Source: Colwellia sp. 75C3
GTDB taxonomy: Bacteria > Pseudomonadota > Gammaproteobacteria > Enterobacterales > Alteromonadaceae
Assembly: GCF_002836255.1 (NCBI RefSeq)
Contig: NZ_PJAU01000059.1
Coordinates: 248,001 to 312,000 of the forward strand
DNA: 64,000 bases
Reading direction: 5' to 3'
Part shown: positions 25,227-59,248 of the stretch, one piece after another
How positions within the stretch are numbered: the first letter of the stretch is position 1
Layout of the letters: every line of letters begins with the position of its first letter
Notes under the pieces: model-generated
Databases searched by the model: none
Seen by the model: only the letters and a program-made list of their open reading frames with translations
What the model was told of the DNA's origin: nothing
Position numbers and translations under genes: made by a program

Positions 25227-26621
25227 TTACAGATTTTGTGGTAACGAAAGACGAATGCTTAATCCTGGTGATAACGATGTTAACAGCAGCTTACCACTAT
25301 GAAGTTCAGCGATAGCTTTTACAATAGAAAGACCTAAGCCAAAGCCACCTTCCTGTCGGCTTGCATCTAAACGATATAAACGTTTAAAAACCGCCTCATG
25401 TTGTGCTTCGGGAATACCCGGGCCGTTATCGATGACAGAAATATCAACGCCAATCTCACTATAGTTTACCGCTAAGCTAATAACGCCTTGTATTTGAGTA
25501 TACTTAATCGCATTCTCGACAATATTATATACTGCTCTAAAGAGTAAATTGGCATCGGCAAAAATGGGCTTGCCCAGTTCATTTTGGTGAGTATTATCAA
25601 CGAAAGTAAAACGCTGGTTTTTATCTTCAGCCAAAGGCTCTGCTAACTCAAACACATCCTGACAGAGCGTACTGATATTAACGCTACTACTAGGTTTATT
25701 TTGGACACCTTTCTCTAATCTTGATAATTCCAACATGGCATTGAAGGTATGAATGACATTATCAATTTCATCGAGCAAATTTTCTTTCCATTGATCACTT
25801 TGATAAATAGCACTATCGTTATCGATACTATCTTCAACTGATATACGAATGCGAGATAATGGCGTTCTAAGATCATGGGCGATGTTATCTGTTACCTGTG
25901 AAACTGAGCCAATCAAATCATCAATCTCATCTAACATTTGATTAATTTGCTCAGCAATCATGTCAAATTCATCTTGCTTAGTGCTAATAGGTAATCTTGA
26001 TTTCAACCGGCCTGCTTTTACATGCGCTGTAAGCTCAGCTATTTGTTTCACTCTAGACAGTACTCGTCGGTTTAACAAAAACCCCGAGATAAGTGTAAGC
26101 ACTAAGGCGAGTATTAACGCAACAATACTTGCTGTGATGAAGTTCTTTTCAAGTACTTGATAATTATTGTCAAACAATCCAATGGATAAATCGCCAAAGC
26201 GAGTTTGTAGATTGGTGCCTAAAAGTATTTCAACGGTGGTATCACCTAAATGGTCAACAACCGCGATGGGGAAATGGCGTAAGGTAGGAAATTCAGGTAA
26301 CTCTTGTGGCAAGCTGTTTAAGTTACCGATAACTTGAGCATCATGCGACAGTACTAAGACCACAGCATTACTTCTTTTTATACGCTGCTGTATGGCCGTT
26401 TTAAAGTCTTTGGCCGTCATACTTGAGCTCTCAGAAAGATCAGCAAAACCTTGTGCAGTAATGGTGACTTGTTGAGCTATTTGGCGTTTCTGTTCACCGA
26501 CCGTGAATTGATAAACAAGCGCCAAAATACTGGTACAGATAAGTAACACAATCAAAGTAAATATTAAGGTAAACCGCCATATAGAGGTTCGAGTAAAAAC
26601 CTTAAAGCGTTCTGACCACAT
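25227..26621 (-). CDS. Sensor histidine kinase of a PepSY-linked two-component system
   Basis: This 464-aa membrane kinase has a first membrane helix at about residues 14-36. A periplasmic sensor region of some 120 aa is followed by a second helix near 160-185 and a HAMP linker. The HisKA helix carries the phospho-acceptor in NIAHDLRTPLSRIR. The ATP-binding lobe has NIVENAIKYT, DNGPGIP and GGFGLGLSIVKAIAELHSG. Its start overlaps the end of the response-regulator gene by 20 bp, so they are co-transcribed. The stimulus is unknown; a membrane-stress or cation signal is a guess from similar PepSY-linked systems. Confidence 0.92.
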   Translation of the reverse strand: MWSERFKVFTRTSIWRFTLIFTLIVLLICTSILALVYQFTVGEQKRQIAQQVTITAQGFADLSESSSMTAKDFKTAIQQRIKRSNAVVLVLSHDAQVIGNLNSLPQELPEFPTLRHFPIAVVDHLGDTTVEILLGTNLQTRFGDLSIGLFDNNYQVLEKNFITASIVALILALVLTLISGFLLNRRVLSRVKQIAELTAHVKAGRLKSRLPISTKQDEFDMIAEQINQMLDEIDDLIGSVSQVTDNIAHDLRTPLSRIRISVEDSIDNDSAIYQSDQWKENLLDEIDNVIHTFNAMLELSRLEKGVQNKPSSSVNISTLCQDVFELAEPLAEDKNQRFTFVDNTHQNELGKPIFADANLLFRAVYNIVENAIKYTQIQGVISLAVNYSEIGVDISVIDNGPGIPEAQHEAVFKRLYRLDASRQEGGFGLGLSIVKAIAELHSGKLLLTSLSPGLSIRLSLPQNL

Positions 26622-27288
26622 ACCCAGCTCCTCGTACCGTATGAATAAGTGGTGCTTGGCCGTTTTCTTCTAATTTCTTTCTTAATTTTGCTACGTGCAC
26701 ATCGATTACATTAGTTTTCGGGTCAAAATGATAATCCCAAACCGACTCAAACAATAACGTTCTGGATATCACCTGGTCTTGGTGTTCTAACAGGTAACGT
26801 AATAATTGAAATTCTTTCGGTTGAATGGTGAGCTCTTTACCGGCTCTAAGTACTTTATGTCCAACTAGGTCCATCACTAAGTCATCAATTGATAACTCTG
26901 TGGCTGGGCCATTGTCTTGGGGGGATGCGCTATACCTTTCAACGAGTATGCTTGCTCGGATATAAAGTTCTTGAAAAGAAAAAGGTTTAGCTAAATAGTC
27001 ATCGCCGCCCGCTTTTAAGCCTTTAATTCGCTCATCGACATGACCTAAAGCACTTAAAATGATAACGGGCGTCTTAATAGTGGCAGCACGCATGGCGGCT
27101 AATAATGCTAAACCATCCATTTTTGGTAACATACGATCAAGCACTACTAGATCATAACTATTACTTGTGGCAAAGAATAAGCCGTCAGGCCCATTTTCTG
27201 CAGTATCAACAATATGCCCTTGTTCGACAAAGCCCTTTTTTATGTAGGCTAATGTTGTCGCATCATCTTCAATAACAAGTAATTTCAT
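26602..27288 (-). CDS. OmpR/PhoB-family response regulator
   Basis: This 228-aa regulator has a receiver domain (acidic pair in VIEDDATT, phospho-acceptor Asp in VVLDRMLPKMDGL, switch Ser/Thr and Lys in LSALGHV and LAKPFSF). A C-terminal winged-helix DNA-binding domain follows (TIQPKEFQLLRYLLEH, VDVHVAKLRKKLE, HTVRGAGYVVR). It lies 9 bp after the PepSY gene and overlaps the kinase gene. All three form a leftward operon. Confidence 0.95.
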   Translation of the reverse strand: MKLLVIEDDATTLAYIKKGFVEQGHIVDTAENGPDGLFFATSNSYDLVVLDRMLPKMDGLALLAAMRAATIKTPVIILSALGHVDERIKGLKAGGDDYLAKPFSFQELYIRASILVERYSASPQDNGPATELSIDDLVMDLVGHKVLRAGKELTIQPKEFQLLRYLLEHQDQVISRTLLFESVWDYHFDPKTNVIDVHVAKLRKKLEENGQAPLIHTVRGAGYVVRTL

Positions 27289-27297
27289 CAGTGTTCA

Positions 27298-27882
27298 CTA
27301 TTTTTTAAATACGGGTATTAGTTGGTTGTTATTTATATCAACAAGCCAGTCTTTTTTACCTTTTGCGCTAATTGTCTCTAGCTCAAAAAATAGAATGCCT
27401 TGCTTGTCTTCAACTTCGATTTCGGTAAGCAGTGAGGACAAATCAAGATTAATGGCGTCAATAGCATTAAGCATAGAGTAATCCATTTTTGCCAATTTTT
27501 TTGCCGTGACAATACGATCATCTTCAGAAAACCATGAGAATAGACGGCTTTTTTCTTCATTAACAATTGAGCCATCTTGAATTGAAATAGTCAGCTTAAT
27601 TTTTTTATCGGCTTCAATATCAATTAATTTTACTTCGTGATAATAAACGCCTTCTTCATCGTCAAGCTCATAACTATAAATAATGCCATTATAATCTTGC
27701 TGCACTTGTTTGATAGTGTGTTGAGCGGTTATACCTGATTTTTCAATAATCGATTTGGTTATCGCTAATTCTTGTTTGTTAGAACCCGCCCAGCTCGCTG
27801 ATATGGTACCGACGGTGAGTAAAGTAACTAAGGCAACTGATTTAAGTGAAGAAAGTGAAGTAAGTAAATTTAAACGTTTCAT
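27298..27882 (-). CDS. Periplasmic protein with two PepSY-type domains
   Basis: This 194-aa protein has a signal peptide ending near SASWAG (about residue 33). Two PepSY-like repeats follow: the first at about 38-110 (AITKSIIEKSG with KQVQQDYNGIIYSYEL and KLTISIQDGSIV), the second at about 125-194 (ELETISAKGKKDWLVDINNNQLI). PepSY domains are small periplasmic modules thought to bind or inhibit proteases, and are often encoded with two-component systems. It is first in an operon with the regulator and kinase downstream, so it may feed a periplasmic signal to that kinase. Confidence 0.8.
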   Translation of the reverse strand: MKRLNLLTSLSSLKSVALVTLLTVGTISASWAGSNKQELAITKSIIEKSGITAQHTIKQVQQDYNGIIYSYELDDEEGVYYHEVKLIDIEADKKIKLTISIQDGSIVNEEKSRLFSWFSEDDRIVTAKKLAKMDYSMLNAIDAINLDLSSLLTEIEVEDKQGILFFELETISAKGKKDWLVDINNNQLIPVFKK

Positions 27883-28010
27883 AATATTGTCCTCTAATAA
27901 GAATAGTATCAGTTTACTTTGTCCTTAATAAAGCCAAGATGTGCAGAACATTAATTATTGTTAATGAATGGCGGAGGGAGCTTAGCGCTTACTTTTACTA
28001 ATAATGATCA

Positions 28011-28050
28011 ATAAAGAAGTTATTAGCAAAATAGCTAATAACTTCTTTAT
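28011..28050 (-). terminator. 17-bp palindrome downstream of the metallophosphatase gene
   Basis: A perfect 17-bp stem (28011-28027 with 28034-28050) has a 6-nt AT loop. It lies 38 bp past the phosphatase stop on the leftward strand. The hairpin is long and A+T-rich but no clean T-tract follows, so it may terminate or just protect the transcript end. Confidence 0.55.
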
Positions 28051-28061
28051 TGGGGAAACGC

Positions 28062-28087: not shown

Positions 28088-29458
28088 TTATTTCACTTCA
28101 TTTAAAGCGTTAACTATTGATGAACGTCTTTGGTATTGATAGCTGTAATCTAATTTTACCTCACCAGTACCACTGTTTGGCGTGGTATGCATAGTGATTT
28201 CAGCATTGTCATCAGTTAGTTGTATATGGGAGAAGCCCCAAATCATACCTTTAGCATAGAGTGCGGTATTATCTTTATATGTCTTGTCTTGATAAGCTTT
28301 AAACTTGCTGTGAACGCCACGCTGCTTTGCTGCTGCACCAGAAATAACTTGTAAAAGTGGTGGCGCATTATGGTTCTCACCAAAAACAGCATCACAACTA
28401 TCTTCATGTAACTCTAAAGAATGTTCATGACCAGCAAAGTAAACATCAGCATATTTACACAATGAAGGTAATATTAGTTTTCTCAATGAACGTGCTTGCT
28501 CAAATTTAGTGCCTCCCGTTGACCAAATTGGGTGATGACCAATAACAAGCTTCCACTTAGCTGTAGAGTTTTTAAGCCCTTGCTCTAACCACTTTGCCAT
28601 GTTTTTTTCTGCATGGTTAATCGGCTTAGTCCAAGCATCAGGTTGATCAATTTCATCAACTTTCATTTCGCTACCATCTGGGTTTAGTTCTGCTTCCATT
28701 ACGGTCGTACCACCAAGCATCACTTCAGTATCGATAACAAAGATCTCAACATCACCATTTCCGGCAGCTGGTTTTACGCTATAAAAAATACCATCCATAT
28801 AAAATGGTTTAGTATTTTCCATAAAGTCTACTTGTGCCATTGCTCCTGCTCTTGAGGTATTCCAATCATGGTTACCTAGCGCGGTATAGATGCGGTAATC
28901 TGGATTACCTTCACCCAAGTTACCAAAAGGTTTGGTAAATATATCATCAAAACGTGTGCTGTCATCTTTACCATCAATGCCCATTGTTGCGCCATCAGGG
29001 TAAATATTATCACCAAGCATTACTGAAAATTCACAAGAGGCCCCATGGCAGTAATCCGTCATAGCTTTAGCTACAGGGTACATGCCACTTGTTTCAATCA
29101 TGCTGCCTACCTCTGATATATATTCACTCGGTGGCGGGGTAAATTCACTCATAACACGGCCATCTTCAAACCAGTCATTTTTTTCGAACGCAACGAACTC
29201 TTGTAAGTCTTTTCTAGCGGGCGTGAATTGTTTCTTCTTCAGGTAATCGGTGTGGTAACCGCTGTCGCCAAACGCAATAAAACCAAAATCGATATTTTGT
29301 TGCTGAGCTGCCTGCGGGGAGGCAGCTTCCGGTTTGCTTTCTGAATTGATACAACCGGCTAATGTAACGCTGGCGAGTAATGGTAGCGTTAACCAGAGAC
29401 TCAATTTAGCTGCATTCTTAACTCGTGGTTTAACTTGTAGCATGGTGTTGTTATTCAT
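28088..29458 (-). CDS. Lipoprotein metallophosphoesterase, purple acid phosphatase-like
   Basis: This 456-aa calcineurin-like phosphoesterase has a lipobox (TLAGC, cysteine at about residue 35). The metal-binding blocks appear in order: FGDSGYH, LGDNIYPDG, LGNHDWN, IGHHPIWSTGG and FAGHEHSLE. This series resembles mammalian-type tartrate-resistant acid phosphatases. It would act at the cell surface or in the periplasm and release phosphate from organic esters. It is 83 bp downstream of a TonB-dependent receptor in the same direction, and a phytase is encoded divergently. The group looks like a phosphate-scavenging cluster. A hairpin precedes the gene, so expression may be reduced relative to the receptor. 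Confidence 0.88.
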   Translation of the reverse strand: MNNNTMLQVKPRVKNAAKLSLWLTLPLLASVTLAGCINSESKPEAASPQAAQQQNIDFGFIAFGDSGYHTDYLKKKQFTPARKDLQEFVAFEKNDWFEDGRVMSEFTPPPSEYISEVGSMIETSGMYPVAKAMTDYCHGASCEFSVMLGDNIYPDGATMGIDGKDDSTRFDDIFTKPFGNLGEGNPDYRIYTALGNHDWNTSRAGAMAQVDFMENTKPFYMDGIFYSVKPAAGNGDVEIFVIDTEVMLGGTTVMEAELNPDGSEMKVDEIDQPDAWTKPINHAEKNMAKWLEQGLKNSTAKWKLVIGHHPIWSTGGTKFEQARSLRKLILPSLCKYADVYFAGHEHSLELHEDSCDAVFGENHNAPPLLQVISGAAAKQRGVHSKFKAYQDKTYKDNTALYAKGMIWGFSHIQLTDDNAEITMHTTPNSGTGEVKLDYSYQYQRRSSIVNALNEVK

Positions 29459-29489: not shown

Positions 29490-29523
29490 GAAAAATTGAA
29501 GGAAAGAGAAACTTTCCTTCAAT
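29490..29523 (-). terminator. Hairpin between the TonB-dependent receptor and the phosphatase gene
   Basis: A perfect 12-bp stem (29512-29523 with 29495-29506) with a 5-nt loop is followed on the leftward strand by a TTTTT run. It looks like an intrinsic terminator within a probable operon, so partial readthrough into the phosphatase gene is likely. Confidence 0.75.
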
Positions 29524-29541: not shown

Positions 29542-31791
29542 TTAAAATGATTTACGTAACGTTAAGGTAATCATTCTGCCAGAGCTTTCATCTTCATGTT
29601 CAAATTCATCAACATTGCCTCGAGTATGGTTGTCGATTACTTCTTGTGTGCTATCACCATCATATTTGGTAAATTTTTCAACTTTATGGGCATCTAATAA
29701 GTTAGTGCCACTTAAGCGTAATACGTAACCATCAGCAAATCTTTTTTCAATAAATACCTCAAGGTTCGCGTCATAACTAAGTTCTACTTCTCTGTTAAAA
29801 TCAACAGATAAACTGTCACCTTGTTTTTGATAACTAAAGCCAAAACTAGCATCCAATTGAGGAATGTTATGCGTTATACCAAAGTTATAAATATAGTCTG
29901 GTTGGTCTCTAAAGTTTCTTTCGACTCCGGTAAATTGGTCGTCAATTTTTGAATCGAGTAAGGTCAGGTTAGCAAAGAATCCGGTGTCATCACCTAAAGG
30001 GGCACTAAGATCCATTTCTAAACCCCAAGTACTACCATTACCAGCGTTATTGTAGGAATAAAGCGTGCCACCCGCTTCAGATTCACCCACACCCGCTTCT
30101 TCGATAACGTCGGTAATATCACGGTAAAAGGCATTAAAGCCAATGATTCCACTACCTGCGAAGGTATACTCATACCCTACATCGATACCCATTGAGACTT
30201 CATCTTCTAAAAATGGGTTACCTTGCTTAGTATCGCCATCTTCAGGTGCATCGTGCTCTGTAATTGGCGCAAGTTGCTTGAAGTTAGGTCGTTTTACCGT
30301 TTGCGCTAAACTCATTCTAAAGGTGCTATCTTCATTCAACTTAGATGAAAAATGCAGTGAGGGATTAACATGAGTAGAGCTAGCATCATAAGCAATGCCT
30401 TCAGCATTGATGGTACGCGCAGTATGTTCGACGCGTAAACCAAGCTCTAAAAAGCTATCGGTGAATATTTCTTTTTTACCTAAGAAGTAACCATCAATGC
30501 GATCTTCTTGTACGTCATAAGTTTGGTCTAAATCGATGTCTTCAATGATGCCAGTTTCGCTATCGACGTTATATTCGATGATGGATTCATCACGGTCTTT
30601 CATCGATAAATCCATGCCAGATTTAAAGGTTAATTCATTTTCAAATATATGCTCATAAAAGCCCGCGAATATAATCTCAGTGTCTTTGGTATCTTCGAGT
30701 TCTCTCGCGTCATACTCCCAAATGTTTTCAGGATCATCACGTTCAAATTTCGTTATATTTTCTACATCGGTTGCGTCAGAATAACTAGCCGATAATTCGA
30801 AATTATTATCGTTTGCTAAATCTTTACTATAAATAGCTGAGAGATTGATAGACTCTTCATCAATGAAAACATCGTCACGAGCATATTCGTATTCATCATC
30901 ATCCACGTCATACATATCTTCGGTCTGTAATTCGCTGCGATCTGTATTTAAGTAGTTAATTTGGAGATCAAGCACTGAAGTATCATCCAAATCATATGAT
31001 ATGCCGGCACTTAATGAGATATCTTCACTATCTCTGATATCTTCTTCTAGCTCATCTTTTTTAAGATCCCCGGGAACAAAACCATTTTCCAAATCGCCAT
31101 CAGCGGCAAAAACCTGTTCAGTTTTAGTTTTATTGACATAACGTTGTTGGAAGATTGCGGACAGTGTCCAAGACATATCATTGGTATTGCCGCCATAACC
31201 AAATGAAGCATTACCTTTAGTGGTACCGTCATCAGCGCTTAAACCACCGATTTTTACAGTACCGCCATCAAAACTGGCGCCATCTTTTAGGATGATATTA
31301 ATAGTGCCACCAACACCTTGGCTATCTTGGTCGGCACTTGGGCTACGTATTATTTGGATACGGTCAACCATTTCAGCGGGAATACGGTCAACGAAAATAG
31401 CTCTATCTGAACTACTACCTGGAACTTTTTTACCGTTGATTAATACTTGGGTATAACCTTCACCCAAACCGCGCATTTGTGGAGCATCATATTCACCAAC
31501 ATCACTACTAAATGAAACACCGGGAGTACGTTTTAACATATCGCCCACTGATGTTGGTTCAAACTGTTCAAAAAACAAGCCGCCGTATTCTAGCTGCGGA
31601 GATACAGACTCTGTTCTGTTACGAAAGACAGGAGATCCTGTAACAACAATTTTTTCAACGTCTTTTTCTGCACTGTTTTGCGTATCTTGCGCTAATAGTG
31701 GTGTACTAATCGTTGATAATATCGCGATAGAAATACAACTATATAAGCTCGATAAATAGTATGTCTTACTCTTGCTTTTGATGTTTTTCAC
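29542..31791 (-). CDS. TonB-dependent outer-membrane receptor linked to phytase
   Basis: This 749-aa receptor has a signal peptide ending near LLAQ (about residue 35). A TonB-box-like EKIVVTGSP and a plug domain follow at about 60-180 (SVGDMLKRTPGV, MRGLGEGYTQVLINGK, RIQIIRSPSA, GVGGTINIILK). A 22-strand type beta-barrel ends in the expected terminal phenylalanine (LTLRKSF). Extracellular loops are unusually acidic. Position opposite a phytase, upstream of a phosphatase and behind tandem Pho boxes suggests uptake of phytate, its breakdown products or a metal-organophosphate complex. The substrate is inference. Confidence 0.93.
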   Translation of the reverse strand: MKNIKSKSKTYYLSSLYSCISIAILSTISTPLLAQDTQNSAEKDVEKIVVTGSPVFRNRTESVSPQLEYGGLFFEQFEPTSVGDMLKRTPGVSFSSDVGEYDAPQMRGLGEGYTQVLINGKKVPGSSSDRAIFVDRIPAEMVDRIQIIRSPSADQDSQGVGGTINIILKDGASFDGGTVKIGGLSADDGTTKGNASFGYGGNTNDMSWTLSAIFQQRYVNKTKTEQVFAADGDLENGFVPGDLKKDELEEDIRDSEDISLSAGISYDLDDTSVLDLQINYLNTDRSELQTEDMYDVDDDEYEYARDDVFIDEESINLSAIYSKDLANDNNFELSASYSDATDVENITKFERDDPENIWEYDARELEDTKDTEIIFAGFYEHIFENELTFKSGMDLSMKDRDESIIEYNVDSETGIIEDIDLDQTYDVQEDRIDGYFLGKKEIFTDSFLELGLRVEHTARTINAEGIAYDASSTHVNPSLHFSSKLNEDSTFRMSLAQTVKRPNFKQLAPITEHDAPEDGDTKQGNPFLEDEVSMGIDVGYEYTFAGSGIIGFNAFYRDITDVIEEAGVGESEAGGTLYSYNNAGNGSTWGLEMDLSAPLGDDTGFFANLTLLDSKIDDQFTGVERNFRDQPDYIYNFGITHNIPQLDASFGFSYQKQGDSLSVDFNREVELSYDANLEVFIEKRFADGYVLRLSGTNLLDAHKVEKFTKYDGDSTQEVIDNHTRGNVDEFEHEDESSGRMITLTLRKSF

Positions 31792-31871: not shown

Positions 31872-31915
31872 GATTTATGACGCTTTTATGACTAACTTAA
31901 GACAGATTTTTGACA
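31872..31915 (-). promoter_or_regulatory. Tandem Pho boxes upstream of the TonB-dependent receptor gene
   Basis: Read leftward, four consecutive 11-bp units occur: TGTCAAAAATC (31915-31905), TGTCTTAAGTT (31904-31894), AGTCATAAAAG (31893-31883) and CGTCATAAATC (31882-31872). A Pho box is two 7-bp CTGTCAT-like repeats separated by 4 A/T-rich bases, so this is exactly two adjacent Pho boxes in phase. They end 80 bp before the receptor start, suitable for PhoB activation of the leftward operon. They could also influence the divergent phytase gene. Confidence 0.82.
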
Positions 31916-31963
31916 TAATGATTTATTGATAAGGTTGTTGTTTTTATAAGCTTTTATTAACAT

Positions 31964-31977
31964 CACATGTACATGTG
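31964..31977. promoter_or_regulatory. 14-bp perfect palindrome in the receptor/phytase intergenic region
   Basis: CACATGTACATGTG is self-complementary over 14 bp and lies midway between the divergent receptor and phytase genes, 220 bp before the phytase start. It looks like a dimeric regulator site, but I cannot name the regulator. The rest of 31916-32196 contains a weak CTGTCCA half-site near 32001 and no further clear element. Confidence 0.4.
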
Positions 31978-32196
31978 AATACGATTAGTTACATTGTTCT
32001 GTCCAAATTTTGGCTGGGTGAAATTGAACGGAACGCCAATATGAGAAATAAAGGTAAGAATGCGGCCACTGAGCATGATTATTCAGCGGCTGAAATATCT
32101 GAGCATCAATTATTAACAAAAGTTAATCTTTAATTAACCTTCTCGTTATTGTCTGTTCGATAAACTAATGCCCAGTTAATAATTGGAGAGACAAAA

Positions 32197-33594
32197 ATGA
32201 CAGCGACTACAATGAGAAAAAGAAATTTAATTCAGATTGCATTAACCTTAGCCCTAACATCAACGTGTAGTATTGCTTATAGCGTTGAAGACAATACAGC
32301 AAGTAAAGTGAATAAGATCGAGACAGTGACTGCCTCAGTAGAAACGAGACCTCACTACAAAGATGCCAAAGGGAACTTCACTGATGTTGACGACCCAGCC
32401 ATCTGGGTAAATCCAACTGACAAAAGCAAAAGCCTAGTGGTTACTACATTAAAAAAGGGGGGCATTGATGTTTATAACTTACAAGGAGAGCTGTTACAGT
32501 TTATCCCGTCAGCATTAGCGCCGAGTTGCAGTGACTCTACGGTAAAGTGTGATAATAAAGCGGGCCGAACCAATAATGCCGATATCATTTATAATTTTGA
32601 TTTCAACGGTAACAAAGAGGATGTGGTCGTGGTGTCAGATCGCGGTCTAGATAAAATGACCATTTATGTCATTAACCCGAATGCAGTCAGTCTATTGCAA
32701 AACGTCACCTCAGCAGCTGCACCGTTAATATTTGCCAAAAACCAACAAGACATTAACGAAGGTCGCACCGCTTACGGCTTAGCAACAGTAAAAACGGATA
32801 AAGCAATGGCCTTTGTTAGTCAAAATAGTGAAACGCGCGTTGCACAATTAGAAATATTTGATAACGGCGACGGCACGATAAGTTATAAAAACATTGCCAA
32901 TATAGATTTTCCTAAACAATTTACTTTACCCGACAAGATCAGCTGGACCCCGTGTTCAGATGATAATAATGAGCGCCCTCACTTAGAAGGTATCGTGGCT
33001 GACGCCAAAAACGACTCACTATTTCTAGCTCAGGAAGATGTTGGCATTTGGAAAGTAAAACTCAGTGAACCGAACAACATCAAACATTGGCAGTTAATTG
33101 CTAAGGTTAAAGAATACGGCATACCCTATACACGCACTTGGGATAAAACTGAGCAAGAATATATTTGTCAGTTAAATAATGAACAAGACAAGAGCTTTGG
33201 TAGCAAGCATCTCACCGCAGATGCTGAAGGGTTAACACTTTATGATGGCGGTAATGGTCAAGGTTATTTGTTAGCTTCAAGCCAAGGTAATAACACCATC
33301 GCTTTATTTAATCGCGAAGCACCACATCAATATATCAACTCTTTTACCGTAAACGGCGGTAACATTGATGGCGTAAAAGAAACGGATGGCATGATGGTGG
33401 TTAACGCAGACTTAGGTAAAGGATTTAGTCAGGGTGTATTAGTTATGCAAGATGGCGACAATAAAACAGTAAAAAACTCATCTTCCACATCAGGTAAAAA
33501 AAGAGAAAGTACCAACTTTAAATATGTTTCATGGGGTGAGGTTGCTAAAAAATTAGATTTACCGATTAACACTGAATTTAATAGAAACAAGTAG
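32197..33594 (+). CDS. Secreted beta-propeller phytase
   Basis: This 465-aa protein has a signal peptide (hydrophobic core at about residues 10-27). A beta-propeller phytase domain spans most of the rest. Family motifs are DDPAIWVNPTDKSKSLVVTTLKKGGIDVYNLQGE, split here as DDPAIWVNPTDKSKS and KKGGIDVYNLQGE. Others are NADIIYNF, the VVSDRGLDKMTIY segment, HLEGIVADAKNDSLFLAQEDVGIW and LTADAEGLTLYDGG. Acidic residues in these motifs form the calcium-dependent active site of the family. It hydrolyses inositol hexakisphosphate to release phosphate. GGAGAGA precedes the ATG. The divergent receptor and the phosphatase beyond it suggest a joint phytate-use pathway. Confidence 0.93.
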   Translation: MTATTMRKRNLIQIALTLALTSTCSIAYSVEDNTASKVNKIETVTASVETRPHYKDAKGNFTDVDDPAIWVNPTDKSKSLVVTTLKKGGIDVYNLQGELLQFIPSALAPSCSDSTVKCDNKAGRTNNADIIYNFDFNGNKEDVVVVSDRGLDKMTIYVINPNAVSLLQNVTSAAAPLIFAKNQQDINEGRTAYGLATVKTDKAMAFVSQNSETRVAQLEIFDNGDGTISYKNIANIDFPKQFTLPDKISWTPCSDDNNERPHLEGIVADAKNDSLFLAQEDVGIWKVKLSEPNNIKHWQLIAKVKEYGIPYTRTWDKTEQEYICQLNNEQDKSFGSKHLTADAEGLTLYDGGNGQGYLLASSQGNNTIALFNREAPHQYINSFTVNGGNIDGVKETDGMMVVNADLGKGFSQGVLVMQDGDNKTVKNSSSTSGKKRESTNFKYVSWGEVAKKLDLPINTEFNRNK

Positions 33595-33658: not shown

Positions 33659-33888
33659 AGGCATTGTCTTTACTCAAATAGAATAACTTGAGAAGTCATG
33701 TTCTTCTACTTAGGTGTACAAGTGTTATTTTAACTTGTTGTAATTATTGATTTAATAAAATTTAATATGAGAGTAATTCATCTTTAATATTATTTAATTA
33801 GTAAGTACAGCGGTTAGGTGTTCCATTGGTGGTCAGAACAATAACTACTTACTACAACAACCGTTATCCTGACAGGAATAAAATAATA

Positions 33889-34821
33889 ATGAAGTTCTTT
33901 ACTACAAAAGCCAGTTTATTTATTGGCGCTATCTCTTTAATGACTAGTTCAGTTATTCAAGCAAACCCTGAACTCGCTAATAATAGTAAAATTATGTTTG
34001 ATGATTTTAGCTATAAAACCCTCACTGACGCACAAAATAATGGCTGGGTACCTAGAACGCAGGTAGGCCATCCCGGTATAAAAAATGCGACGTGGTGGTC
34101 AGCAGGTATTAGCTTTCACCCTGATCAAAGTAATGCCAATAATACCGTGATGCGCTTAACCTCAAAAACTGATGGCAGCCCAGAAAATACTCGCCACACG
34201 CAAATTTGTCATCAGCGTAAGTACCTAGAAGGTACCTATGCCGCTCGTTTATTTTTTAATGATCAACCTGACTTTGGTCCTGACGGTGATGGCATTGTCG
34301 AAACCTTCTACACTATCAGTCCACTAGAAGCGCCAATGGATAAAAATTACAGCGAAATGGATTTTGAATACCTGGCCAACGGTGGTTGGGGCGAAAAAGA
34401 GAATGTATTATTTTCAACTTCTTGGGAAACTTTCCAACTTGAGCCTTGGACAAAAGTGAATGCTTTTGATACTTATGTAAAAAGCCTGCAAGGCTGGAAT
34501 ACCGTAGTATTACAGGTGTTTGATAATGAGGTGAAATATTATATAAACGGGCATTTATTTTCACAACACGGCAGTGATGTGTATCCAGAAGTAGCTATGT
34601 CGGTTAATTTCAATTTATGGTTTATACCAGAGCAAATAGTAGAAAGCACTGAGATGCGTCAATATCATCAAGAGATTGATTGGGTGTATTTTAATGCCGA
34701 TCAGAATTTGTCCCATAAAGAAGTGGTAAACGAAGTCGCAAGATTACGTAAAAGTAATGTTAAACAACAAGATAATGTGCCACATTGGCAACCTGAGTTA
34801 GATAGCTATTGCGGTTTGTAA
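33889..34821 (+). CDS. Secreted GH16-like glycoside hydrolase or concanavalin-fold protein
   Basis: This 310-aa protein is read from ATG 33889, which follows an AGGAA site and begins a proper signal peptide (MKFFTTKASLFIGAIS, cleavage near IQA). An upstream in-frame start at 33826 adds only a non-signal-like extension and is rejected. The core contains YSEMDFEYLANGGWG, an E-x-D-x-E motif like the catalytic motif of GH16 enzymes in the xyloglucanase-type form. Other jelly-roll strands are WNTVVLQVFDNEVKYYINGHLF and EIDWVYFN. A C-terminal cysteine pair partner is possible (CHQRK, SYCGL). Substrate unknown, presumably a beta-glucan or galactan. Confidence 0.68.
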   Translation: MKFFTTKASLFIGAISLMTSSVIQANPELANNSKIMFDDFSYKTLTDAQNNGWVPRTQVGHPGIKNATWWSAGISFHPDQSNANNTVMRLTSKTDGSPENTRHTQICHQRKYLEGTYAARLFFNDQPDFGPDGDGIVETFYTISPLEAPMDKNYSEMDFEYLANGGWGEKENVLFSTSWETFQLEPWTKVNAFDTYVKSLQGWNTVVLQVFDNEVKYYINGHLFSQHGSDVYPEVAMSVNFNLWFIPEQIVESTEMRQYHQEIDWVYFNADQNLSHKEVVNEVARLRKSNVKQQDNVPHWQPELDSYCGL

Positions 34822-53115: not shown

Positions 53116-53245
53116 ATTAAGTCCGTGCTTGTCATATTAGTGACATATTTACGTCACAAAATCTTCATTAGTGCTCATTATACTGCTCCTATCTTAAAAG
53201 GTTAACAACTCAGTGTTAATCGCGTTAATAAATTTAGGGATGAAT

Positions 53246-54358
53246 ATGTCAATTATTAGAAAACGAAGTGCCGCTCACAAGGCTTACTTACCTGGTAATG
53301 TTCGTGATAATCAATATATTTTGGCCGAATTTAGTTTGACCGATGAGCTATTTCAGCAGTTTTCAGGAAAATATAGCGACTTAAAACCGCAGCCATTTTA
53401 TGATTTTTACCAGCAGCTAGCAGATATATTCTTTAAATTAACAGATGAATTTGAGTTAGAGAATTGTCAGTTTATTGCTAATGATAAATTGGCTAGAGTC
53501 AGATACAGCCAAGAAATGCACCAATGGCAAACCAATCAACAAATTCTCTTTTATTACAATCCGGAAAGTCACCACCTTAAAAAGTCTTTTTTTGATGGCA
53601 GTAAACGAGCGAAAAAAATCTGTTTACTCTTTTTGGCTACCGGTAATGAGATCCGCGTTAATGCGGCCTGTTTTCATAGTAAAGTAAGTCAACTTGTCGA
53701 AAAATTTTGTCAAACAATTAAGTTAGATAAAAGCGATGTACGTTTGAGAGATCACCAGCACCTTACTTACGATTTGTTTGCTAAGAATAAGGGCTGTACC
53801 ACTAGCCAAACACATAAATTACGTGAAATTAAAAAACGTTATGCTAGCCAAGACGTGATTGTACCGGCTTATCATAGTGCAATGAATTATGCGGTTGTTA
53901 CGTTAAATATCAGCAATGAATTATTGAAACAGGTAGAAATAGATAGTCACTCAAAAGACACTTATAACCCATTGTATACTTACCTAACGGATGTATTCAC
54001 CATGGCAGCAAAACGCTATAATTTAAACAATGGTGCGCTGATTGCCAATGGTTTAGTACCCATTGTTCGATACAGTATTCATGAGATTGTTTCTCGAGTA
54101 GGTGAGTTGCAAATGTTAGGTTACAACCCTGAACAAAGTCCATGCGGTATGGTTAGTAAATGGAGTGCAGGTGAATTAACAGATAGCGTACAGCTAATTT
54201 TTGTCGCCACCCCAGAAAATAACAGTGAACATGGTTTTGGTCGTTTTTTAAACCAAATTGAACAAGCAATGCAATTGATGGCGGTAGAGCTTGAAATTGA
54301 GCCAACTAAAGAAGAAATGGTGGTTAGATTTCATCAACACCTAGCCTATAACTATTAA
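53246..54358 (+). CDS. Internally duplicated protein, probable DUF3083 family
   Basis: This 370-aa soluble protein is read from ATG 53246, which has AGGGA five bases upstream. ATG 53240 and GTG 53213 are less likely. I think it is DUF3083, a family known from Alteromonadales with no function, but that is recall. It consists of two similar halves. Residues about 24-176 and about 215-370 share an opening strand (YILAEFSLTDELF and YAVVTLNISNELL). They also share an IANDKLARVRYS/IANGLVPIVRYS block, YNPE, LLFLATGNE/LIFVATPEN and the closing HQHLTYDL/HQHLAYNY. A basic linker joins them. No catalytic motif or membrane segment is visible. Confidence 0.72.
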   Translation: MSIIRKRSAAHKAYLPGNVRDNQYILAEFSLTDELFQQFSGKYSDLKPQPFYDFYQQLADIFFKLTDEFELENCQFIANDKLARVRYSQEMHQWQTNQQILFYYNPESHHLKKSFFDGSKRAKKICLLFLATGNEIRVNAACFHSKVSQLVEKFCQTIKLDKSDVRLRDHQHLTYDLFAKNKGCTTSQTHKLREIKKRYASQDVIVPAYHSAMNYAVVTLNISNELLKQVEIDSHSKDTYNPLYTYLTDVFTMAAKRYNLNNGALIANGLVPIVRYSIHEIVSRVGELQMLGYNPEQSPCGMVSKWSAGELTDSVQLIFVATPENNSEHGFGRFLNQIEQAMQLMAVELEIEPTKEEMVVRFHQHLAYNY

Positions 54359-57021: not shown

Positions 57022-59208
57022 ATGCAAAAGAAAAAATTAATATTATCTACACTCGCTCTATTTGCCGTACTTGTATGGTTATATCCTTCTGAGCAACCCT
57101 ATAAGTTCCGGCAAGTTAAGCGATTGGCTACCGCCGAAGATAATTATTTACTACCAATCTCTCCGCATATTAGCCAAGTTGGGCGTCCCAAAGAAGTCTT
57201 TCACTTTCCTATCAAGTTAGGCGATGTTGGGCCAAGTAATTCGCTATATTCAGGTCCGAAACAATACCCATTTTATTGTATGACCATAGACTCACACATT
57301 GGCCAGCCTTTGGTCGATAACCAAGAGGGCTTTGGTGTACCTGTATATGAAAATTTAGCACTGCGTAGCAAAGTTATTGGTTATTCAAAAGACTGCTTAT
57401 TTAAAAGTCATTTGCAGTTTTATTATCTTAATCAGGATGAAAAGTTGTCGAAGCTCGCTGCTGATAAGTTCTCCCAATTATCGACTTTAAGAGACGCCAA
57501 AGCCCCTTTACAATTGTTTCGTGCGGAACAAGGCAGTATTAATCGTTTCATTTACACGATAGCCATGGCAATCACGCCTGAAGAACTAGGTACACGTACT
57601 GAGAGCTCTTTGTGGAATAAGAAGCTTATCTATCAATTTAATGGCGGCTCAGGTATAGGTTTTAGGCAAGGAAGGCAAAAAGCAGTTCGTACGATAACCC
57701 GACGTTTAATTGAAGTTCAGAAAGGCTACGCTATTATAAGCTCGAGCGGAAATCGCACTAGTTATACTTATAATATGTTACTAGCAGAAGATACTGCACG
57801 TAGGGTAAAGCTGAACTTTGTTCGTTTATTTGGTGAGCCAATATATACGGTTGGCATAGGCGGCTCAGGTGGTGGTTTAGCGCAATACCTTATTGGCCAA
57901 AATAGCACGGGCATTCTTGATGGCTTAATTCCTCAATACTCTTACCCCGATATGATCAGCCAAACAATTTATACTTTAGATTGTGATTTATTTAATAATT
58001 ATTTTACCTTTCGAGCCAAAGATAATAGCCGCTGGCAGCAATGGGACCAGCGACAATTACTCGAGGGCATGAACACTTTGCAAGATTTTCCACAAAAAAT
58101 AGCGTTCTTACAACCGGTTGCACAACTAATGGCAGGCATGGTACCTAGTTTCCCAGAAGGAAATAGTGAATGTATTAATGGCTACTTTGGTTTATCGACC
58201 TTTATTCATAATCCTAGACAAGGCTTCTTGCGACATTTTTATAGTGAGGATGTGGTTGATAAGACCAATTGGAACTATTGGGAAGATATGGCGTGGTTAT
58301 TCAGCCGTGATAAGCATGGGCTAGTAGAAAGTACTTGGGATAATGACGGTGTTCAATATGGTTTGCACGCGTTAAAGCAAAAGCAGATCACACTCGCTGA
58401 GTTTGTTCATATCAATAAAAATATTGGCAGTTGGAAAGAGCAGCACCAAATGACAGCTGAAAAAATTATTATTCCGTTTGGACGTAAAATGCCATTTTGG
58501 GTCTCTTTGTGGGGAAGTGACAATATAACGCAAGTCATTGATAACCAAATGGCGCCTAGGCGAAGCGCTTCACTTGAATCAATAGAACTGGCTTATCGAG
58601 GTGGGCAGGTATTTATTGGCAAACTTGATTTGCCTATTATCGATGTTCGTCATTACTTGGAAGAAAAACTCGATATGCATCATATGTCAGCATCTTTTAG
58701 TACCCGATTACGGTTGCAACAGGCTAACGGTCATTTTGATAATCAGGTTATTTGGGTGGCAAAACGAGACTTTGACCCAACAGATCAAGCTTTTGATGTA
58801 ATGGATTTATGGTTGCTGAAACGTCAACAATTTCCTGAGTTAACTGCAGGGCAAAGTAAGCCAGCACAAATACAAGATACGTGCTTTGATAATAAGGGGG
58901 AAGTGCTGGCACAAGGTAAGGGGGTTTGGCAGGGAAATTGGAGTGATGCTAGCTCTGGCGATAAAAGGATAAAACGAGGGGCATGTGCAAAACATTATGC
59001 CATCTTTTCAAATAGTCGTATACAAGCCGAAGGTCCCTGGCAAGGCAGTATTTTCAAATGTTATAAAATTCCGTTTGAACAGGCGATTAAACAAGGTATG
59101 TACGGGGATATAGAACTTGCTGAGCAGTTACCGTCTTTACGCACAATATTTGCGCAAGGGGTCTGTGATTATAGTCAAGGCGATGTAGGTAGACCTAGCG
59201 ATCTTTAG
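57022..59208 (+). CDS. Large secreted or membrane-anchored hydrolase-like protein (DUF6351-like)
   Basis: This 728-aa protein has an N-terminal hydrophobic segment (about residues 5-20) that is a signal peptide or anchor. A nucleophile-elbow-like motif GIGGSGGGLAQYL occurs at about 285-300, followed by LDGLIPQYSYPDM. Together with ITIDSHIGQPLVD-type N-terminal sequence and the C-terminal end GVCDYSQGDVGRP, this resembles DUF6351, a tannase/alpha-beta-hydrolase-like family. Several cysteines could form disulfides, in line with export. The substrate is unknown. It follows msrA by 95 bp in the same direction. Confidence 0.65.
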   Translation: MQKKKLILSTLALFAVLVWLYPSEQPYKFRQVKRLATAEDNYLLPISPHISQVGRPKEVFHFPIKLGDVGPSNSLYSGPKQYPFYCMTIDSHIGQPLVDNQEGFGVPVYENLALRSKVIGYSKDCLFKSHLQFYYLNQDEKLSKLAADKFSQLSTLRDAKAPLQLFRAEQGSINRFIYTIAMAITPEELGTRTESSLWNKKLIYQFNGGSGIGFRQGRQKAVRTITRRLIEVQKGYAIISSSGNRTSYTYNMLLAEDTARRVKLNFVRLFGEPIYTVGIGGSGGGLAQYLIGQNSTGILDGLIPQYSYPDMISQTIYTLDCDLFNNYFTFRAKDNSRWQQWDQRQLLEGMNTLQDFPQKIAFLQPVAQLMAGMVPSFPEGNSECINGYFGLSTFIHNPRQGFLRHFYSEDVVDKTNWNYWEDMAWLFSRDKHGLVESTWDNDGVQYGLHALKQKQITLAEFVHINKNIGSWKEQHQMTAEKIIIPFGRKMPFWVSLWGSDNITQVIDNQMAPRRSASLESIELAYRGGQVFIGKLDLPIIDVRHYLEEKLDMHHMSASFSTRLRLQQANGHFDNQVIWVAKRDFDPTDQAFDVMDLWLLKRQQFPELTAGQSKPAQIQDTCFDNKGEVLAQGKGVWQGNWSDASSGDKRIKRGACAKHYAIFSNSRIQAEGPWQGSIFKCYKIPFEQAIKQGMYGDIELAEQLPSLRTIFAQGVCDYSQGDVGRPSDL

Positions 59209-59248
59209 ATGAATTTTATTTGGAGTTTAGATTAAAGATAGGTGAAAA

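Follow-up and report, generated by a model that had tools for sequence, protein, structure and literature searches.

A doubled Pho box predicted to control a phytase-linked TonB-dependent receptor gene in Colwellia sp. 75C3

A TonB-dependent receptor gene that stands divergent to a phytase gene in Colwellia sp. 75C3 is preceded by a tandem Pho-box array, and PhoB control of this receptor is well supported by the sequence evidence. The array occupies positions 31873-31916 (minus strand) of the window, i.e., the whole 64-kb stretch of DNA that was analysed, and its four TGTCA-type half-sites recur with an 11-bp period and point to the receptor. Very probably, it is a PhoB-dependent promoter for the receptor gene and, in part, for the phosphatase gene behind it. 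This reading is based on the array and its register, the genome's genes for PhoB, PhoR and PstS, and a like layout at pstS and at related phytase operons; PhoB binding, the phosphate response, the start site and the receptor substrate are what we infer.

Pho boxes are well known from Escherichia coli, where those of pstS, phoA and phoB are composed of 7-bp CTGTCAT-like direct repeats with an 11-bp period that replace the -35 element. A -10 hexamer follows approximately 10 bp downstream, and the boxes at pstS are tandem. The array in the window resembles these promoters in its repeats, period, -10 distance and tandem form, but differs in its target, which is a receptor and a phosphatase beside a phytase. 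When phosphate is scarce, PhoR would phosphorylate PhoB, and PhoB dimers would occupy the two adjacent boxes standing in for a -35 element. RNA polymerase would then start about 6-7 nt past the hexamer TAAAGT and produce receptor mRNA and, to some extent, phosphatase mRNA. The receptor is probably an importer of phytate or of a lower inositol phosphate, from which the phosphatase and the phytase would free phosphate.

Read directly on the minus strand, from 31916 down to 31873, the array is ATGTCAAAAAT CTGTCTTAAGT TAGTCATAAAA GCGTCATAAAT, i.e., four half-sites that, with their spacers (ATGTCAA-AAAT, CTGTCTT-AAGT, TAGTCAT-AAAA and GCGTCAT-AAAT), keep a period of exactly 11 bp. Their 7-mers agree with CTGTCAT at 5, 6, 5 and 5 of 7 positions. 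The initial annotation had described four CTGTCAT-like repeats every 11 bp over 44 bp, and this description holds with the coordinates shifted by one base.

Several statistics were applied to the array. Plain counting of 7-mers discriminates weakly and was rejected as the main statistic: the sum of 21 of 28 tops the 11-bp spacing, but a 9-bp spacing yields an equal sum at one place in the window. A 40-mer pattern, which is post hoc in being derived from the array itself, matched the genome (5,405,604 bases) once exactly and once more with two mismatches; its reversed control also had one match with at most two mismatches. Within the window, at up to three mismatches, the pattern was found in three overlapping registers, all of one array, with 0.02 matches expected. 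The check proposed with the initial annotation, a scan with a PhoB position weight matrix, was more telling. This matrix was built from 29 dimers, 3 from the genome's own phoB and pstS promoters and 26 from relatives, with the window excluded; its independence of the window does not extend to the PhoB literature, because a known consensus was used to pick the training set. The tandem scored 30.4 bits; in a simulated null of 120 strands, the mean was 3.7 and the highest value 13.6. Its two boxes are unequal, with single dimers of 18.4 bits (rank 1 in 64 kb) and, for the upper one, a mere 12.0 bits (rank 6), and even the better dimer is below the single-dimer null maximum of 19.2. The significance of the array rests on the doubled arrangement and the -10 register. 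In favour of a functionless chance run of AT-rich TGTCA-like words, the 7-mer sum is equalled at 9-bp spacing and the reversed pattern finds a match; against it are a tandem score far above the null and a -10 register common to pstS, phoB and related promoters, and we regard it as very improbable.

The predicted -10 hexamer, TAAAGT (31866-31861, minus strand), begins 10 nt past the last 7-mer of the array, GCGTCAT, from which it is separated by AAATCTTAGT; the GTG start of the receptor gene is at 31791. A hexamer occurs at the same distance from the last half-site at the genome's own pstS (TATAGT) and phoB (CACAAT) and at a second receptor gene on contig C55 (CATACT). Of 36 boxed phytase-linked relatives, 28 carry TAnnnT at offset 10, and no more than 5 carry it at any one of the other offsets from 0 to 29. 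We also searched 155,752 bases of the same genome, a set that counts approximately 6.4 kb twice and was partly picked for pho genes or pattern matches, and found four-half-site arrays scoring at least 0.68 in exactly four places, all of which have a -10-like hexamer starting at this same offset of 10.

The genome encodes a single PhoB (362.6 bits), which is the sole protein above the curated cut-off of 296.2. Its receiver and DNA-binding domains match the solved E. coli PhoB (E 3.2e-45 for the DNA-binding domain), and the stretch that we take to be the recognition helix differs from that of E. coli by conservative changes only. The phoB gene is followed by one for PhoR (PF11808) and, approximately 270 bp further on, by one for a PstS-like protein. 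Pho boxes are located upstream of both phoB (L015:15940) and pstS (L015:18269), and the pstS promoter has a second, partly degenerate dimer. On contig C55, a tandem Pho-like array (L017:9763-9806), which is the genome's only other match to the 40-mer pattern (the one with two mismatches), ends approximately 60 bp before another TonB-dependent receptor gene, itself followed by a phosphodiesterase/sulfatase-like gene. The gene divergent from this receptor resembles, by eye, a glycerophosphodiester phosphodiesterase. The earlier proposal of a doubled PhoB operator facing the receptor is supported by the matrix score, the 10-nt spacing to the -10 element, a near-unchanged PhoB helix and the boxed relatives.

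The receptor gene (29542-31791, minus strand) codes for a protein of 749 aa with plug and barrel domains, a GTG start and, by eye, a signal-peptide-like N-terminus. Next on the same strand is the gene for a calcineurin-like or purple-acid-phosphatase-like phosphatase (28088-29458; 456 aa), with a lipobox-like LAGC near the N-terminus, again by eye. In the gap between the two genes, a terminator-like hairpin (29496-29522, minus strand; -15.0 kcal/mol) is followed by TTTTT (a pattern scan did not list it), and a 19-bp hairpin 3' of the phosphatase gene (28009-28052, minus strand) is a possible transcript end. Given these hairpins, the receptor is the surest target of the array, and the phosphatase is a likely, possibly attenuated, one. 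The initial annotation had also predicted that the phosphatase responds to phosphate starvation; this is plausible, but read-through may be partial since the terminator-like hairpin intervenes. Genes for a PepSY protein, a CusR-like response regulator and a histidine kinase (25227-27882, minus strand), which may have a promoter of their own, are kept beside the receptor and phosphatase genes in three relatives. With a GC content of 0.37-0.40, the locus resembles its surroundings (0.37-0.42), so there is no compositional sign of recent import.

OmpR-class proteins bind direct repeats, and the CusR-like regulator (26602-27288), a member of the OmpR/PhoB class, could do so as well. Its gene, the third one downstream from the receptor gene, accompanies the receptor and phosphatase genes in the three relatives, and if it bound the array, the operon would answer another signal. 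However, the regulators of these three relatives are 74-79% identical, and their receptor promoters lack such an array on the coding strand; moreover, the array in the window is like the phoB and pstS boxes in both sequence and -10 spacing. As the relatives keep the regulator without the array, this local regulator was rejected as the main binder, and we consider its role in place of PhoB very unlikely.

We further examined promoters of phytase-linked genes across the order, in which PF02333 phytases occur in 38 of 394 genomes. Of 41 phytase loci, 31 have a receptor gene ahead of the phytase gene in the same orientation, with a phosphatase gene between them in 5 of the 31. The promoter counts covered first genes of operons, which removes the phytases of L027, L028 and L096; left out were receptor-like matches of 600 aa or less, genes with fewer than 350 bases upstream, L106 (on the same contig as L111) and the own-genome stretches L015-L017. 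As controls, we took operon-first genes that had a gap of at least 100 bases and did not match any of the reference proteins. A dimer scoring at least 0.70 was found at 37 of 44 phytase-linked first genes without inositol (iol) neighbours, a set that includes the window's receptor (boxed) and phytase (unboxed), at 1 of 5 with iol neighbours, and at 44 of 215 controls. The corresponding counts are 33, 1 and 37 at a cut-off of 0.72, and 27, 1 and 24 at 0.75. The contrast of no-iol loci with controls had p-values of 7.6e-12 or smaller at all three cut-offs, and that with iol-linked genes weakened from 0.0068 to 0.026 and 0.15 (at 0.70, 0.72 and 0.75). These counts and p-values are descriptive, since many loci are close relatives, with several per genus, and the trials are not independent. 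It counts against the main reading that one control gene in five also reaches 0.70, a number raised by some control genes that share a divergent region with a receptor. When the best dimer had to score at least 0.70 and also to be followed by TAnnnT at offset 10, the genes numbered 28 of 44 without iol neighbours, 0 of 5 with them and 12 of 215 controls; the window's receptor is outside the 28 because the upper dimer is here its best, and the hexamer stands behind the lower dimer. At L068:12265-14153, the gene pair divergent from the receptor-phytase operon encodes a GGDEF protein and an AraC-type regulator. Similar-sized divergent pairs recur in many phytase loci, some with a Pho dimer facing them.

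The phytase gene of the window (32197-33594, plus strand) encodes a single-domain beta-propeller phytase of 465 aa (PF02333, 174.5 bits with a cut-off of 21; E 1.7e-37 to the solved phytase 1poo). It is followed by a gene (33826-34821) whose product has no Pfam or NCBIfam match and resembles, by eye, a secreted GH16-type protein. The initial annotation had suggested that the divergent phytase might also respond to phosphate; in one alternative reading, the array acts as one bidirectional Pho promoter. The array is 280 bp upstream of the phytase start, and co-regulation would make sense given that a receptor precedes the phytase in most loci and that the first genes of these are mostly boxed. 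On the other hand, Pho activation is orientation-dependent, and the best plus-strand dimer in 31901-32200 scores only -0.7 bits. A separate Pho box for the phytase was rejected on this score, and with no phytase-facing box found, this part of the earlier proposal is unsupported. In addition, a separate perfect 16-bp palindrome, TCACATGTACATGTGA (31963-31978), is present nearer to the phytase, for which it is a candidate operator; its 14-bp core was not found in the other loci compared, save in copies of the same place. Bidirectional control is therefore doubtful. The preferred reading is still a PhoB promoter directed at the receptor.

The closest orthologs found of the receptor and the phytase (52-66% identity) are located in myo-inositol catabolic clusters. 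Receptor orthologs at approximately 60% identity occur, besides the window's own genome, in 2 of 295 genomes of the family (G558 and G114) and in a Kangiellaceae MAG; none of the 15 other listed genomes of the genus has it at 1e-80. A search of contigs with the single receptor sequence found no relative, and a profile search found four loci, including one of Aliiglaciecola lipolytica E3; L113 (31%, partial) was left out. All three of these ortholog loci share the gene order RpiR, IolB, IolG, receptor, phosphatase and MFS transporter, which continues (after a ZrgA-like gene in two) with inositol monophosphatase, PepSY, response regulator and kinase. Iol genes also adjoin the receptor gene of Kordiimonas gwangyangensis, whose product matches at 41-42%. 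Few genomes have the orthologous single-domain phytase, which was found in 4 of 147 family genomes at 1e-20 (the own genome and one partial match included) and in 3 of 394 genomes of the order at 1e-100 (the own genome included). In G086, G114 and G452, its gene is part of an operon of iolC/aldolase, iolD, iolE, phytase and aldehyde dehydrogenase. IolB, C, D, E and G of representatives were above NCBIfam cut-offs.

The three closest receptor orthologs (59-61%) have no Pho box on the coding strand, so the array is without direct phylogenetic footprinting. This absence of a conserved box upstream of the orthologs bears on ancestry and is not something that a Pho box requires. On the coding strand, all four iol-linked receptor promoters lack a dimer that reaches 0.70; against this contrast are opposite-strand dimers at two iol-linked loci (0.72 in L105, 0.70 in L111) and a dimer of 0.76, with the hexamer absent, at the Kordiimonas phytase. 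Dimers of at least 0.72 were absent from the L027 and L096 stretches, and the one in L028 is inside a gene. At L097, where the single-domain phytase is less closely related (41-42%), a box scores 0.82, and the 9.8 kb examined contain no iol gene. The three closest receptor orthologs have in common a block (GAA-N7-TTC plus TTCTATA-TGG) approximately 170-235 bp before the receptor, and the consensus of this block finds nothing comparable in the window (26.3 at best, vs 41-43).

Inositol modules controlled by IolR, with the motif GGAA-N6-TTCC, are known (PMC2597717). The closest orthologs found of the window's receptor and phytase reside in modules of this type. In contrast to these, the window carries a Pho array, no GGAA-N6-TTCC and no iol cluster beside the receptor. 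Exact GGAA-N6-TTCC sites are present once each in two of the ortholog loci, L110 and L111, before other genes (RpiR/IolC and a binding-protein gene) and not directly before the receptor. L112 has two such sites (one intragenic), L027 has one (intragenic), and L105, L028 and the 64-kb window have none. The window's genome, with an estimated completeness of 99.99%, had no match to IolB (PF04962) or to DUF2090 (PF09863), which is fused to IolC in relatives; these two families represented the iol cluster in the search, and equal searches found PF09863 in 2 and PF04962 in 6 of 14 control genomes. A Gfo/Idh/MocA protein of the window was considered as IolG and rejected (96.7 bits, cut-off 355).

These comparisons, which cover four iol-linked receptor loci only, suggest that the receptor-phytase module was rewired from inositol or carbon control to phosphate control. 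Because the nearest orthologs were found wired to inositol catabolism without boxes, the Pho box most likely reflects a lineage-specific rewiring, which most likely came with loss of the inositol pathway or with acquisition of the module without it. In the simplest reading, the lineage keeps a phytate module without inositol catabolism, and the receptor has been placed under PhoB. A broader generalization, to which we give even chances, is that phytate-uptake modules with the same receptor, phosphatase and phytase have two regulatory states, with IolR-type control in iol clusters where inositol can be burned and PhoB control otherwise, and that the window would represent a switch in which iol genes were lost and the box was gained.

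Elements of this arrangement are already in print. In Caulobacter crescentus, an alphaproteobacterium, the genes under PhoB control include those for a phytase, for phosphatases and for several TonB-dependent receptors (PMC11208175); neither the receptor family of the window nor its gene arrangement is described in the portion of that report consulted. In Citromicrobium, a receptor gene adjoins a phytase gene as in the window, which was read as pointing to phytic acid as the receptor's substrate, with no Pho box mentioned in the sections seen (PMC3400609). In the open-licence literature, we found no account of inositol-linked versus Pho-linked wiring of one receptor-phytase family, and no paper that brings together phytase, inositol catabolism and TonB. 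The promoter and its neighbours may serve to predict whether phytate is used for phosphorus, under PhoB, or for carbon, under inositol control, and for this group there is now a PhoB matrix whose -10 register is exact.

This matrix already singles out DUF3083, a family of unknown function. Besides the array, two tandems in the window exceed 13.6 bits, and the stronger (32.5 bits) is located upstream of a DUF3083 gene (53246-54358). Here, four half-sites (53129-53168, plus strand) are followed by TAGTGCTCAT and then by TATACT (53179-53184), 10 nt past the last half-site. DUF3083 is present in 87 of 147 family genomes, and 51 loci were sampled: the window, 30 returned by the search, and 20 that were picked, mostly close relatives plus the genome's own second copy. 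Each of the 23 examined loci with an identity of 57% or more, the window among them, has an upstream dimer of 10 bits or higher (several of the 23 are near-copies), compared with 1 of 28 loci whose identity is 49% or less and 24 of 214 controls. In 13 of the 23, TAnnnT lies 10 nt past the dimer. The genome's second copy (47%, L163) has no upstream Pho dimer. By these sequence criteria, DUF3083 is a probable member of the Pho regulon, and we found no mention of it in the open-licence literature. The other tandem is a weaker match of 16.9 bits at 59205-59248 (minus strand), which also exceeds the simulated maximum.
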